Of a stretch of DNA of 36,741 nt, positions 5,387 to 30,863 are shown piece after piece. The DNA is taken from the NCBI GenBank assembly GCA_016219175.1, contig JACRCD010000042.1, forward strand, positions 1-36,741, in the 5' to 3' direction. Made by a program: the position numbers and the translations under genes. Numbering within the stretch: position 1 is the first letter of the stretch; every line of letters begins with the position of its first letter. The notes under the pieces are model-generated. The model saw only the letters and a program-made list of their open reading frames with translations. It did no database searches and was not told the DNA's origin. Origin of the DNA: Deltaproteobacteria bacterium. Its GTDB lineage: Bacteria; Desulfobacterota; Desulfobulbia; Desulfobulbales; SURF-16.

Positions 5387-5535
5387 GACGATCTCCTTAT
5401 TATATGTCAAAAAAATTCTTGGTAATGTCTATAGATAGTCATCTTTTCCCATGGATAGAGCCAGCCTGCTCACAAAAAGTTCTCCCTTTTCACCCGCTGT
5501 TTCCCTGCAAACGACTTTTTTTGCGGGACGCCTTC

Positions 5536-6471
5536 TCATGAGTGCAGCAACAGACGAAGACGCCGGACCAGGCTGGTGACAACCTGGCGGGGGTGGAAGG
5601 GAATCTGTTTTAAAGCGGCGGGAAGCAGAAAGCCGCTCGGCCGGACATCCCCGGGATGCAATAAAGGAAAAACAAGATCCTTTTCAGCGGCCCCCGCATA
5701 CTTACGGCGGGCCGTCTCCCTCCATACCATGCTGGCCCGGGCGGGAACCCCCAGTGTCATCAGCATGGCGGTATCAAGGGCCACGGGATTAACCGAACCG
5801 GCTACAATCCCCAGGGGAAAGGCAACACCATCCATGGGCCCGCTTTGATGCATGGCCTCGATGCCATCCATGAAACTGACGCCCGAAGGCAGCACAGCCA
5901 GCAGATCCACCAGCATCCGGCAGAAAGAATTTTCATCCTTGCCGAGTTTCTGATGCAGCCGGGCCTTGCCAAAGCCCTTCACCGTACCGAAATAGTTTTT
6001 CACCGCCAAGGTGACCAGGGTCTGGGAATGGGCTTTGAATCTGGGGAGGTTGATAAGAAGATCGCAATCCAGGGACTCGGCGGCAATGACGACCTTCTCT
6101 CCGCAGGCAAGTTGCACCGGAAGACCTGTTTTAAAATGAACCAACTTGACCGGCAAATCCTTTACCCTCTCGGCAATACCGCACTGAACCATCACCGCCT
6201 GGGCCCGGCCAAAGGCCGGAGAATCACCGATGGAGACCGTGGCCCCGCAGTCTACACACCACTGCGCCGCCGCGGCGACGAATTCCGGATGGGTACAGGC
6301 AAGGCCGTCATGGCCGCGGCCTGAAACCAGATTAGGCTTGAGCAACACCCGGCTGCCGGAGGGGACGCGAAAAGAAAGGGCAGCGGCCATGGTTGCCAAC
6401 TGCTCTGCTATCATGCCCCTGTCGTACTTGGGACAGCGCAGCAGGCCTACAATGTTTGAGGTGATTTGCAT
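5536..6471 (-). CDS. DUF362 domain-containing protein
   Basis: This 311-residue protein fits the DUF362 family. It shows RVLLKPNLVSGRGHDGLACTH near residue 42, GDSPAFGRAQ, the LLINLPRFKAHSQTLVTLAVKNYFG core near 140-165, and the PLGIVAGSVNPVALD segment. The C-terminal ferredoxin-like cluster found in some members is absent. Biochemical function is not established for this type. Upstream, instead of a plain promoter, lies a sigma-54 promoter (6608-6623) followed by a strong terminator (6526-6565), so transcription into this gene would need read-through. The ribosome site is weak (GAAG four bases before the ATG). Confidence 0.85.
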   Translation of the reverse strand: MQITSNIVGLLRCPKYDRGMIAEQLATMAAALSFRVPSGSRVLLKPNLVSGRGHDGLACTHPEFVAAAAQWCVDCGATVSIGDSPAFGRAQAVMVQCGIAERVKDLPVKLVHFKTGLPVQLACGEKVVIAAESLDCDLLINLPRFKAHSQTLVTLAVKNYFGTVKGFGKARLHQKLGKDENSFCRMLVDLLAVLPSGVSFMDGIEAMHQSGPMDGVAFPLGIVAGSVNPVALDTAMLMTLGVPARASMVWRETARRKYAGAAEKDLVFPLLHPGDVRPSGFLLPAALKQIPFHPRQVVTSLVRRLRLLLHS

Positions 6472-6520
6472 CGATCTTCAGCAAAAAAAAGGGAAAAATC
6501 CGGACTAAAAAGGGGGGCAT

Positions 6521-6598
6521 AAAGCGAAAAAGGCCAACCCTGGGGGGACAGGATCGGCCTTTTTCTGGAGAAAGGAGATAAGAGTTGTTATCTTGATT
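6521..6598 (-). ncRNA. Candidate ~75-nt sigma-54-dependent RNA (or attenuated leader)
   Basis: The region between a -24/-12 promoter and a rho-independent terminator contains no ORF of note. The predicted start is 10-12 bases past the -12 GC, near 6598. The RNA would fold into a 5' hairpin, AGATAA (6593-6588) with TTATCT (6581-6576) around CAACTC. A C/U-rich single strand containing ATCTCCTTTCTCC follows, then the terminator hairpin. The exposed UCUCC stretches could pair with Shine-Dalgarno sequences, as several bacterial regulatory RNAs do. The alternative is a leader whose hairpin attenuates the DUF362 gene 50 bases downstream. Promoter and terminator are seen; the RNA itself is inference. 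Confidence 0.42.
6526..6565 (-). terminator. Strong rho-independent terminator upstream of the DUF362 gene
   Basis: On the minus strand GAAAAAGGCC (6565-6556) pairs perfectly with GGCCTTTTTC (6535-6526). Inside the loop, CCTG pairs with CAGG. The 3' arm ends in a five-T run. It lies 320 bases after the aconitase stop, but only about 35 bases after the predicted sigma-54 start. Confidence 0.7.
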
Positions 6599-6607
6599 AG
6601 GAGATAT

Positions 6608-6623
6608 AGCAATAGGTGTGCCA
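6608..6623 (-). promoter_or_regulatory. Sigma-54 promoter (consensus -24/-12)
   Basis: The minus strand reads TGGCAC-ACCTA-TTGCT, an exact match to TGGCAC-N5-TTGCW with GG and GC ten bases apart. It faces the terminator at 6526-6565 and the DUF362 gene. Sigma-54 promoters need an activator bound upstream; the 265 bp behind it hold the repeats described for 6711-6896. Confidence 0.75.
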
Positions 6624-6710
6624 AGCTGCCAAAAAAATATTTTTTCTCCCAAACCCTTATGCACCAACGGAAAACCTTTTTCTCCGGAAATAACCCCCGA
6701 GCAAAAAAAA

Positions 6711-6896
6711 TACAATTTTTTATACCAAATGCCCCCTTCCCGGAAAAGACAGAAAATAATACGCGATATCAAGACATTACAAGATGAACAATTTTTTGTA
6801 CCAGCCGGTACAAACATTCTGCTCCGCAAAGACCTGTCCATAAAAGTCATAAAACAAACAGATAAGGGAACACGCGGTACAATTTTTTTAATTACC
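6711..6896. promoter_or_regulatory. Candidate enhancer region with palindrome and repeated motif
   Basis: TTTGTACCAGCCGGTACAAA (6795-6814) is a perfect 8-bp-arm palindrome. It contains TGT-N10-ACA, the classical NifA upstream activator pattern, about 200 bp behind the sigma-54 start. ACAATTTTTT recurs three times: 6712-6721, 6788-6797 and 6879-6888. The first two continue to TACC, so 6711-6726 and 6787-6802 are near-identical 16-mers. Binding by a NifA- or NtrC-like activator is inference. The region is otherwise AT-rich and non-coding. Confidence 0.38.
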
Positions 6897-8807
6897 TTTG
6901 GCCCAATTAAGCAAGCCGCCAGCCAGCAGAATCTCCCGGTGCCGGGCGGAAACATCCAGGCTCGCCTCAACAGCCTGTCCGTCGATCTCCACGGCCAGCG
7001 TCTCGGCGCCGGCCAGCAGGGATTGCCGGACATGAGGGATAACGACCTCTGCCCCCTGCTGAATCCGGTCATAATCAGCGGGATTAACAAAGGTAAGAGG
7101 CAGAATGCCGAAATTTATCAGATTGGCCTTGTGGATACGGGCGAAACTCTTCACTATTTTCACCTCAACTCCCAGATACCTGGGGGCAAGGGCCGCATGC
7201 TCCCGGGAAGACCCCTGTCCATAATTTTCACCGCCGACAATCATGCTGCTGCCGGTTTCCCTGGCATGCTTACTGAAGTTTTCATCCAGGGCCTTGAAGA
7301 CAAAGTCGCTGATGGCCGGGATATTGCTGCGTAACGGCAGAACCTGGGCGCCGGCAGGCATGATGTGGTCGGTGGTGATGTTATCGCCCGCCTTCAGCAG
7401 GACTTTCCCTTTCCATGTTTCCGGCAGCGGGGCAAAAGCCGGGAATGGCGCGATATTGGGCCCACGGATGACCTCCACCCCGCTTCCGTCGGGGAGAGGC
7501 GGCTCGATGCGGGAGTCGCCGGGCAGATAGGTCTCCGGCAGGGAAAAGGACGGATACGCCCCGAGGTCCCGCGGGTCGGTAATTTTCCCGGTAATGGCCG
7601 AAGCCACCGCGACTTCGGGACTGCAGAGATAAACCTGATCGTTTTTTGTCCCGCTGCGGCCGGGGAAGTTCCGGGGGAAGGTCCGCAGCGATATGGTGCC
7701 GGTGGCCGGGGCCTGGCCCATGCCGATACAACCCAGGCAACCGGCCTGATGCACTCGGGCGCCGGCGTGAATGAGGGGCAGCATTTCCCCCATGGCCGTC
7801 AGATTCTCCAGCACCTGGCGGCTGCCGGGATTGATTTCAAAACTCACCTCGCTGCTCACCTGTTTGCCGGCCAGGGTTTTGGCGACCACGACCAAGTCCC
7901 GGAGCGAGGAGTTGGAGCAGGAACCGACCAGCACCTGGGCAACCGGTTTTCCCGCCACCTCTCTTACCTTCACCACATTGTCCGGCGAGGAGGGGCAGGC
8001 AATGAGCGGCTCCAGGGCAGACAGGTCAATCTCGACCACCTCATCATAGCGGGCATCACTATCGGCCACAATCTCAAGCCAGCCGCTTTCCCTTCCCTGG
8101 CTCCGCAAAAACTTCAGGGTATTTTCATCCGAGGGGAAAACAGAGGTCGTGGCCCCGAGTTCCGCCCCGAAATTCGTGATGGAGGCCCGATCGGTAACGG
8201 AAAGTTCCTTCACCCCGGGGCCGAAGTATTCCATGATATAGCCAACCCCGCCTTTGACGGAAAGCCTGCGAAGCAATTCCAGCAGCACATCACGGGCCGA
8301 TACCCAGGGCGAAAGCCTACCCGTCAACTTCACCCCGTAAACCCTGGGCATAACCAGATAAAAAGGCTTGCCGGCCATGGCCATGGCCACATCAAGACCT
8401 CCGGCCCCGATGGCCAGCATGCCAAGGCCGCCGCCGGTTGGGGTATGGCTGTCTGACCCGAGGAGGGTCTTGCCCGGCTTGCCGAATCTTTCCAGGTTGA
8501 TCTGGTGGGAAATGCCGTTGCCGGGGGGAGAAAAATACAGACCGTATTTCCTGGCGATGGACTGCAGAAAACGATGATCATCGGCATTCTTGAAATCGGA
8601 CTGCAGCAGGTTATGGTCGACATAGCAGACCGAGCATTCCGTCTGCACCCGGGGGATGCCGATTGACTCAAATTCCAGATAGGCCATGGTCCCGGTGGCG
8701 TCCTGGGTCAGGGTCTGATCAATGCGGATGCCAATTTCTTTGCCTTTCACCATCTCGCCTTCCACGAGATGAGCCTCAAGTATCTTTTCTGTAACGGTTT
8801 TACCCAT
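6888..8807 (-). CDS. Aconitate hydratase, Aquifex-type
   Basis: Aconitase interconverts citrate and isocitrate through a [4Fe-4S] cluster. At 639 residues this is the short, single-chain form often called Aquifex-type rather than the ~890-residue AcnA or AcnB. Visible motifs: LLGSDSHTPTGGGLGMLAIGAGG near 120, the cluster cysteines in VGSCSNSS (about 296) and AGCLGCIGMG (about 355), and a C-terminal swivel domain with NITTDHIMPAG and NYGQGSSREHAALAPRYLGV. It could instead act on a related 2-hydroxy-acid such as homocitrate or isopropylmalate, but no leu genes are nearby. The 390-bp upstream gap is shared with the flagellar operon, transcribed the other way. Confidence 0.9.
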   Translation of the reverse strand: MGKTVTEKILEAHLVEGEMVKGKEIGIRIDQTLTQDATGTMAYLEFESIGIPRVQTECSVCYVDHNLLQSDFKNADDHRFLQSIARKYGLYFSPPGNGISHQINLERFGKPGKTLLGSDSHTPTGGGLGMLAIGAGGLDVAMAMAGKPFYLVMPRVYGVKLTGRLSPWVSARDVLLELLRRLSVKGGVGYIMEYFGPGVKELSVTDRASITNFGAELGATTSVFPSDENTLKFLRSQGRESGWLEIVADSDARYDEVVEIDLSALEPLIACPSSPDNVVKVREVAGKPVAQVLVGSCSNSSLRDLVVVAKTLAGKQVSSEVSFEINPGSRQVLENLTAMGEMLPLIHAGARVHQAGCLGCIGMGQAPATGTISLRTFPRNFPGRSGTKNDQVYLCSPEVAVASAITGKITDPRDLGAYPSFSLPETYLPGDSRIEPPLPDGSGVEVIRGPNIAPFPAFAPLPETWKGKVLLKAGDNITTDHIMPAGAQVLPLRSNIPAISDFVFKALDENFSKHARETGSSMIVGGENYGQGSSREHAALAPRYLGVEVKIVKSFARIHKANLINFGILPLTFVNPADYDRIQQGAEVVIPHVRQSLLAGAETLAVEIDGQAVEASLDVSARHREILLAGGLLNWAKGN

Positions 8808-30532: not shown

Positions 30533-30863
30533 ATCTCCTCCTCATCAACGAATTATTTCGGCAATGAACTTTGCCGAGGACAACGTCGTATTCGTCAGGT
30601 ACAAGTTATATGCCACCTGCCGGCTTTTTTTCGCGCCAATATAACACGCTGTTTTCTCGGTAAAAGTTGTTTACCCTGATTTTCCCCCCTGAAATCCTGG
30701 TCATTTTTTTTACTGCACTTGTGCTGCATAATTCAATTTTTTGAACATTTCAGCTTGACCCTCTCTCGTATTAATAATAATCTTTGCAAGGGCCATGAGG
30801 CATGCGAAAGCTGTTTTGCATGGAGGCCCAACAGACTAAAATAAGCGAATAGAGGTAACCCCT
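30533..30863. other. Divergent intergenic region
   Basis: No gene is seen. CGGCAA (30559-30564) and TTGCCG (30571-30576) form a hairpin or operator 27 bases ahead of the NifX-like start. On the plus strand TTGACC (30755-30760) and AATAAT (30776-30781), 15 bases apart, could be a promoter for the TPR gene. On the minus strand TGGCAT-ATAAC-TTGTA (30615-30600) resembles a sigma-54 site, but the essential -12 GC is GT. Confidence 0.4.

Follow-up and report, generated by a model that had tools for sequence, protein, structure and literature searches.

We describe a small RNA that is very probably transcribed from a sigma-54 promoter in Desulfobulbales, and whose conserved C/U-rich core probably acts by pairing with the ribosome sites of messages. 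On balance, with confidence slightly above even, we favor the reading that this sigma-54-controlled RNA lowers the synthesis of outer-membrane proteins by pairing with their Shine-Dalgarno regions. From the computed promoter, RNA fold, upstream dyads, conservation and complementarity we infer the transcription, activator, repression and signal of the following circuit. A sigma-54 activator would bind GTAYAAAAAATTRTAY dyads located about 100 bp and further upstream and turn the promoter on, and a standalone sRNA of about 72 nt would be made, ending at its own terminator. Its core, UCUCCUUUCUCC, would then pair with purine-rich Shine-Dalgarno regions and block ribosome loading. Among the predicted targets, the best conserved are a subfamily of Porin_5 porins and, in the genus from which the DNA comes, the OmpA/Pal lipoprotein, with single FadL-like and OmpA genes elsewhere. 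When the activator senses its signal, the sRNA would thus lower outer-membrane protein synthesis, as sigma-E-dependent sRNAs do in enteric bacteria.

The RNA was found in a contig of 36,741 nucleotides (the whole stretch analyzed, hereafter the window), in the minus strand of an intergenic region flanked by an aconitase-like gene (6888-8807, identified by eye) and by a DUF362 gene (5536-6471, minus strand, named in the initial annotation). Direct reading confirmed the consensus -24/-12 promoter that the same annotation had placed there. The element, TGGCACACCTATTGCT (6608..6623, minus strand), reads TGGCAC-ACCTA-TTGCT from 6623 to 6608 (TGGCAC-N5-TTGCT), with ten bases from GG to GC, and by its sequence and spacing it is a sigma-54 promoter. 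Counting 12 bases from the C of the promoter GC, the start of the RNA is predicted at about 6597, where 6598 had been claimed, and the 3' end falls in the T-run, at 6526 or a few bases beyond. The RNA (6526..6597, minus strand) would therefore be about 72 nt long and not about 75. The -24/-12 consensus is placed to start this RNA, as in sigma-54-dependent trans-acting sRNAs. No gene lies between promoter and terminator, as had also been stated. The sole listed open frame across the RNA (6332-7090, minus strand, 252 codons, TTG start) overlaps both neighboring genes in a different reading frame, and the only start-like triplet in the window's copy of the sRNA sits within the terminator.

The predicted layout of 5' hairpin, C/U-rich single strand and terminator was reproduced by the fold. 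In 5' to 3' order there are a hairpin AGATAA-CAACTC-TTATCT (6593 to 6576), the unpaired C/U-rich stretch and an intrinsic terminator hairpin with a UCCCCC loop (6565 to 6526). A 70-nt piece folds on its own with -29.8 kcal/mol (z of -6.1 versus shuffles). The first three bases of the strongly conserved core (6567..6578, minus strand), which is complementary to Shine-Dalgarno regions, are paired within the 5' hairpin and the remainder is unpaired. The 5' hairpin itself is variable, being kept in part of family f1, replaced by other forms in f3 (AAGAGT/ACTCTT) and missing in some loci. The terminator with its T-run stood up to the analysis, with a stem of 17 pairs in the fold instead of the 10 described, beginning about 32 nt after the start instead of about 35. 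Over 17 aligned copies, 7 of the 10 predicted terminator pairs had at least one sequence changed on both sides with the pairing kept. A simple terminator scan of positions 5400-7000 reported no terminator, apparently because of the scan's own loop and tail rules.

In the seven relatives having the RNA, its region was 88-98% identical to the window's copy, versus 47-63% in the 60 nt past the terminator and 58-70% in the 100 nt upstream. A match to DUF362 was present in 52 of the 58 genomes searched (the window's own included, and some of them weak), and many of the 30 DUF362 loci fetched have the promoter, core and terminator in their upstream regions; several do not (L014-L018, L026, L028 and L029). 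In order to follow the RNA independently of its promoter, we used a covariance model of the RNA without the promoter, built from 17 copies including that of the window. It recovered the window copy at 6526-6595 with an E value of 7.6e-18, this copy being itself in the training set. At E≤0.001 there were matches in 140 of the 257 genomes of the order (some weak ones among the 140 will be chance), distributed over 47 of 69 genera; among good assemblies the figure was 86 of 148. Most genomes of family f11 gave no match to the model. A sigma-54 promoter (TGGYA-N7-TGY), absent from the model, was located just upstream of 53 of the 60 matches read, or 46 of 53 when the seven places that served to build the model are set aside, versus a background of 0.9% of random 101-nt windows from the loci. 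The seven matches lacking it were six weaker extra matches of a genome and one best match (L091). The initial annotation had named loss of conservation in relatives as the finding that would speak against the RNA; actually, promoter, core and terminator are conserved across the order. Besides, the sRNA is present two or three times in genomes of family f15, and every copy has a sigma-54 promoter of its own (L104, L105 and L106 in G056; L099 and L100 in G248; L101, L102 and L103 in G249).

A search of named genomes for the promoter followed by the core yielded 98 stretches. Among the 80 matches listed, 56 were of the window type, carried by Desulfurivibrio sp. SURF_16, Desulfopila, Desulfocapsa, Desulfobulbus sp. 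Tol-SR and others, 15 were of a Desulfobacca-type variant and 9 came from other phyla. The last 9, with no visible terminator, we take as chance. The variant has an extra C-rich element, GGTTACCCCC, before the same core and a terminator with a CCCCC loop, and its group shows a different enriched upstream motif, GGTTAAAA/ATTTTAACC; it is possibly a sister family. In these 15 loci (L113, L176, L183 and 12 similar ones) the element preceding the core is conserved as GGTTACCCCCG...CCC. The RNA had been said to match no recognized family, and Rfam 15 indeed gave no match to it in the window at the gathering score; the scan of ten other loci of the family found only tRNAs and a permissive scan of 6400-6700 had a best E of 0.82. 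We searched the literature on sRNAs of Desulfobulbaceae, sulfate reducers and sigma-54-dependent sRNAs (covering few subscription journals, and one paper on sulfate-reducer ncRNAs, PMC11124144, by keyword) and found no report of this RNA among the matches listed. Within that literature the sRNA family and its combination of features appear new. The RNA seems to belong to an uncatalogued sRNA family that is conserved through the order Desulfobulbales, with a relative in the Desulfobacca-type genomes.

The core is complementary to GGAGAAAGGAGA, and we looked for this complementarity at gene starts. The 11-nt pattern GAGAAAGGAGA-N1-12-ATG occurred at 55 places in 20 genomes, whereas the backward pattern gave 5. 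Several of the 55 are not gene starts: two are the reverse reading of an sRNA gene, three are duplicates, and six recur in an apparent single conserved coding stretch. Twenty-three of the matches read precede a frame of at least 140 codons (some frames being cut by the end of the stretch), and 12 of these are of outer-membrane type, mostly as judged by eye. They comprise five Pal-like OmpA-domain lipoproteins from members of the genus, five Porin_5-like porins from f4 and f1, and two f3 genes, an OmpA-domain lipoprotein and a FadL-like protein. Pfam was run on L321, L295, L308 and L294, and the FadL-like protein was named by eye with no Pfam match. The other 11 of the 23, also identified mostly by eye, include DUF6765 (three), aldehyde dehydrogenase (two), TauE, flavodoxin and rhodanese, and matches at HU and FliN were found among the shorter frames. 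A further Desulfobulbaceae genome added one more porin and one FadL-like case. The matching starts read in the Desulfobacca-type group belonged to MerR-like and other genes, none recognizable by eye as outer-membrane. A relaxed search for a 16-nt complement with 2 mismatches gave 74 places in 8 genomes versus 26 in the backward control, and we set it aside as weak: 8 of the 74 were the RNA gene itself and many lay inside genes. That outer-membrane messages are the main targets of the sRNA is a tentative proposal, in which our confidence falls somewhat short of even.

The porin subfamily is present in 38 of the 257 genomes, and among 25 starts read an exact 12-nt complement of the core covers the ribosome site in 15 (from f4 and from genus g27 of f12) and an 11-nt complement in 2 more (f1), leaving 8 with not even 11 nt. 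The leader sequence outside the complement differs among the matching porins. Against the proposed targets, in g27 the RNA is without the UUUCUCC half of the core and the porins nevertheless keep the full complement, and the RNAs of other lineages pair with g27 porins at least as well as the cognate RNA. Distant Porin_5 matches had no such complement and are unsupported as targets; the window's genome gave no match to the L295-type porin. The OmpA/Pal lipoprotein showed a 10 or 11 nt complement in 7 of 12 starts read, corresponding to six genus members and G011. The complement was found in none of the 5 other starts nor in any of 10 starts from other families, so that Pal is unsupported as an order-wide target. 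One genome, G002, keeps the Pal complement yet gave no sRNA match by the covariance model. The computed pairing energy of the core in the window's genome was -19.7 kcal/mol for the Pal leader and -18.0 for TauE, the best of 31 window gene starts chosen by script being -17.1. A small hairpin, TTGTC-GAGAAAGGA-GACAA (L321, just upstream of 1518), holds the Pal ribosome site in its loop; it is kept in most congeners and could offer the site for pairing.

Part of the strong pairing seen with purine-rich leaders is to be expected, since the core is close to an anti-Shine-Dalgarno sequence. A sigma-54-dependent sRNA with such a core might mimic the 3' tail of 16S rRNA and damp translation in general by competing for many Shine-Dalgarno sites, with no outer-membrane focus. 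The resemblance of CUCCUUUCU to the 16S tail would agree with this (a search for 16S rRNA in the window's assembly for this comparison found none), and so would the unrelated genes that carry the 11-nt complement. However, that complement precedes an ATG at just 0 to 6 places per genome, and the porin subfamily, having 11 or 12 nt in 17 of the 25 starts read, looks selective. We regard a general damper as unlikely. The repeated CU-rich motifs, the C-rich loops and the extra copies in some genomes could also point to an RNA that mainly binds protein, for instance a pyrimidine-binding chaperone or a ribosomal protein, and works as a sponge. Against this reading, for which there is no candidate protein, are the exact 12-nt complements at the porin ribosome sites and the absence of the C-rich loop from many f12 copies that retain the CU-rich core sequence, and we consider it quite improbable.

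The region upstream of the promoter contains a dyad of consensus GTAYAAAAAATTRTAY, and two of its copies in the window are probable enhancer sites, GTATAAAAAATTGTAT (6710..6725, minus strand, 0 mismatches, about 100 bp upstream of the -24 element) and GTACAAAAAATTGTTC (6786..6801, minus strand, 1 mismatch). A third, weaker dyad, ATTAAAAAAATTGTAC (6877..6892, minus strand), has 3 mismatches to the consensus, and by eye congeners have a similar copy in this position. The exact form occurs once in the window's genome, at the first of these sites. At up to 2 mismatches and within about 320 bp upstream, the dyad was found in 47 of 52 promoter-bearing loci (from some of which the consensus itself was drawn). 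Among dinucleotide shuffles it turned up in 10 of 1040, and among other windows taken from these loci in 2 of 386. Loci lacking DUF362 have it too (15 of 18), and in 14 of those 15 it is placed at -94 to -134 relative to the -24 element. This spacing would fit an enhancer for a sigma-54 activator. Looking for a wider regulon elsewhere in 18 genomes, we found that matches with at most 1 mismatch were, overall, about as frequent as in the control; f12 has two exact sites away from the sRNA, which adjoin a short gene of no obvious bearing. A lone intergenic GTTCAAAAAATTGAAT (30731-30746, minus strand) has 2 mismatches and is within the chance level of the search.

Other features of this region were observed in some relatives. 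Between dyads and promoter several of them have, by eye, an inverted repeat CCCTT-N7-AAGGG, perhaps the site of a second regulator, with a degraded form in the window, CCGTTGGTGCATAAGGG (6654-6670, minus strand). At L240-L243 (three g20 loci and one g27 locus, all f12; by eye) the sRNA has a divergently oriented histidine-kinase-like gene beside it, which is followed by a response-regulator-like gene and then, in the three g20 loci, by a short conserved protein. We rejected this kinase-adjacent system as the activator; a simple motif scan of the response regulator revealed neither a GAFTGA-like nor a Walker A motif, and it is not an obvious sigma-54 activator.

The initial annotation had suggested nitrogen control, with glnN and htpX as targets. 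An NrsZ-like sRNA under NtrC and acting on glnN would agree with the sigma-54 promoter, with the presence of glnN in the window and with a lone TGGTGCA near 6662. However, the congeners read by eye have not retained TGGTGCA, and the conserved and enriched upstream motif is a dyad of another kind than the NtrC site. The C/U-rich strand is complementary to the glnN (AAGGAGA) and htpX (AAGGAGAU) sites as claimed, with computed core pairing energies of -11.2 and -10.2 kcal/mol that rank 8th and 13th among the 31 window gene starts. Since these sites pair like ordinary ribosome sites, neither gene is supported as a target, and outer-membrane genes would be the better candidates. Of that proposal, the sigma-54-dependent regulatory RNA with its conserved promoter, core and terminator survives; we find the nitrogen circuit very improbable.

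The RNA could also be a leader or attenuator of the DUF362 gene, which in 32 of 53 loci lies downstream of it in the same orientation and had been offered as the alternative to an sRNA. An attenuator would always lie upstream of DUF362 and in line with it. Two of the other 21 loci were too near the contig end to judge, and at 19 of the 51 judgeable loci DUF362 was absent downstream, with RNA and promoter kept. At least five of the 19 (L101, L102, L104, L105 and L107) are extra copies, another copy adjoining DUF362 in the same genome; L073-L076, L087-L090, L092, L093, L110 and L111, with no DUF362 downstream either, are not known as extra copies. At several loci without DUF362 the next mechanical open frame points the opposite way. 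Besides, the distance from RNA to DUF362 varies from about 18 to 272 nt, and the copies folded showed no alternative fold. We therefore reject the attenuator on synteny, as scarcely probable. Because DUF362 follows in only 32 of 53 loci and at varying distances, we read the RNA as a standalone sRNA and DUF362, outside the RNA, as a frequent but inconstant neighbor. Having its own terminator and being independent of the downstream gene, the RNA resembles sigma-54-dependent sRNAs. A fossil promoter and terminator that are never transcribed would agree with an sRNA known here from sequence alone, but with promoter, core, terminator and dyad all conserved throughout the order, it is the least probable explanation of all.

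The sRNA here proposed belongs to an order of environmentally important sulfur bacteria, and its promoter, probable enhancer and core can all be seen. With it comes a testable account of how the outer membrane of Desulfobulbales could be tuned post-transcriptionally, and the dyad provides a handle for finding the activator and hence the signal. In its widest form, which is speculative and which we hold less probable than otherwise, a sigma-54 activator with a dedicated dyad would run an envelope circuit in Desulfobulbales and relatives, where one anti-Shine-Dalgarno sRNA shuts down porins and Pal and fills the role that sigma-E sRNAs have in enteric bacteria, the multicopy lineages having expanded the circuit.

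Three kinds of sRNA are already known separately: those dependent on sigma-54, those that repress omp messages, and CU-rich ones of the anti-Shine-Dalgarno type. Qrr, NrsZ and CrcZ are sigma-54-dependent trans-acting sRNAs with dedicated activators, RybB and MicA are sigma-E-dependent and repress omp messages, and the UCCC motifs of LhrC pair with the ribosome sites of surface-protein messages. By its sigma-54 dependence the RNA described here would be of the same kind as Qrr, NrsZ and CrcZ, with no match in sequence at the gathering score of the Rfam scans. In another sulfate reducer, Desulfovibrio vulgaris, four ncRNAs have been assigned to sigma-54 regulators, and the DVU1419 regulon, labelled envelope stress and posttranscriptional regulation, includes one ncRNA (PMC4641369, PMC3333781). 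These are likewise sigma-54-linked, the comparison being by description and not by sequence; Desulfovibrio was not among the 80 matches listed of the 98 in the promoter-plus-core scan. NcS25 of Burkholderia, an 84-nt sRNA, is a strong repressor of a porin, and is similar in being short and in repressing a porin, as is proposed here; it differs in that, according to its authors, no sigma-54 motif was detected upstream of it, while the porin's own promoter resembles one (PMC10117139). In Listeria, cell-envelope stress induces the multicopy sRNA LhrC by way of a two-component system (PMC4132741). Our RNA resembles it, as far as the descriptions can be compared, in its multiple copies in some genomes and in CU-rich motifs that would pair with ribosome sites, although LhrC belongs to another phylum and is not known to use sigma-54. 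In its proposed outcome the sRNA resembles RybB and MicA, where an alternative sigma factor makes short sRNAs that reduce outer-membrane protein messages, repression of omp messages being documented for sigma-E-dependent sRNAs (PMC1804206). While those use sigma-E, the sRNA of the window would rely on sigma-54 and an upstream dyad to act on a predicted target class of the same nature.
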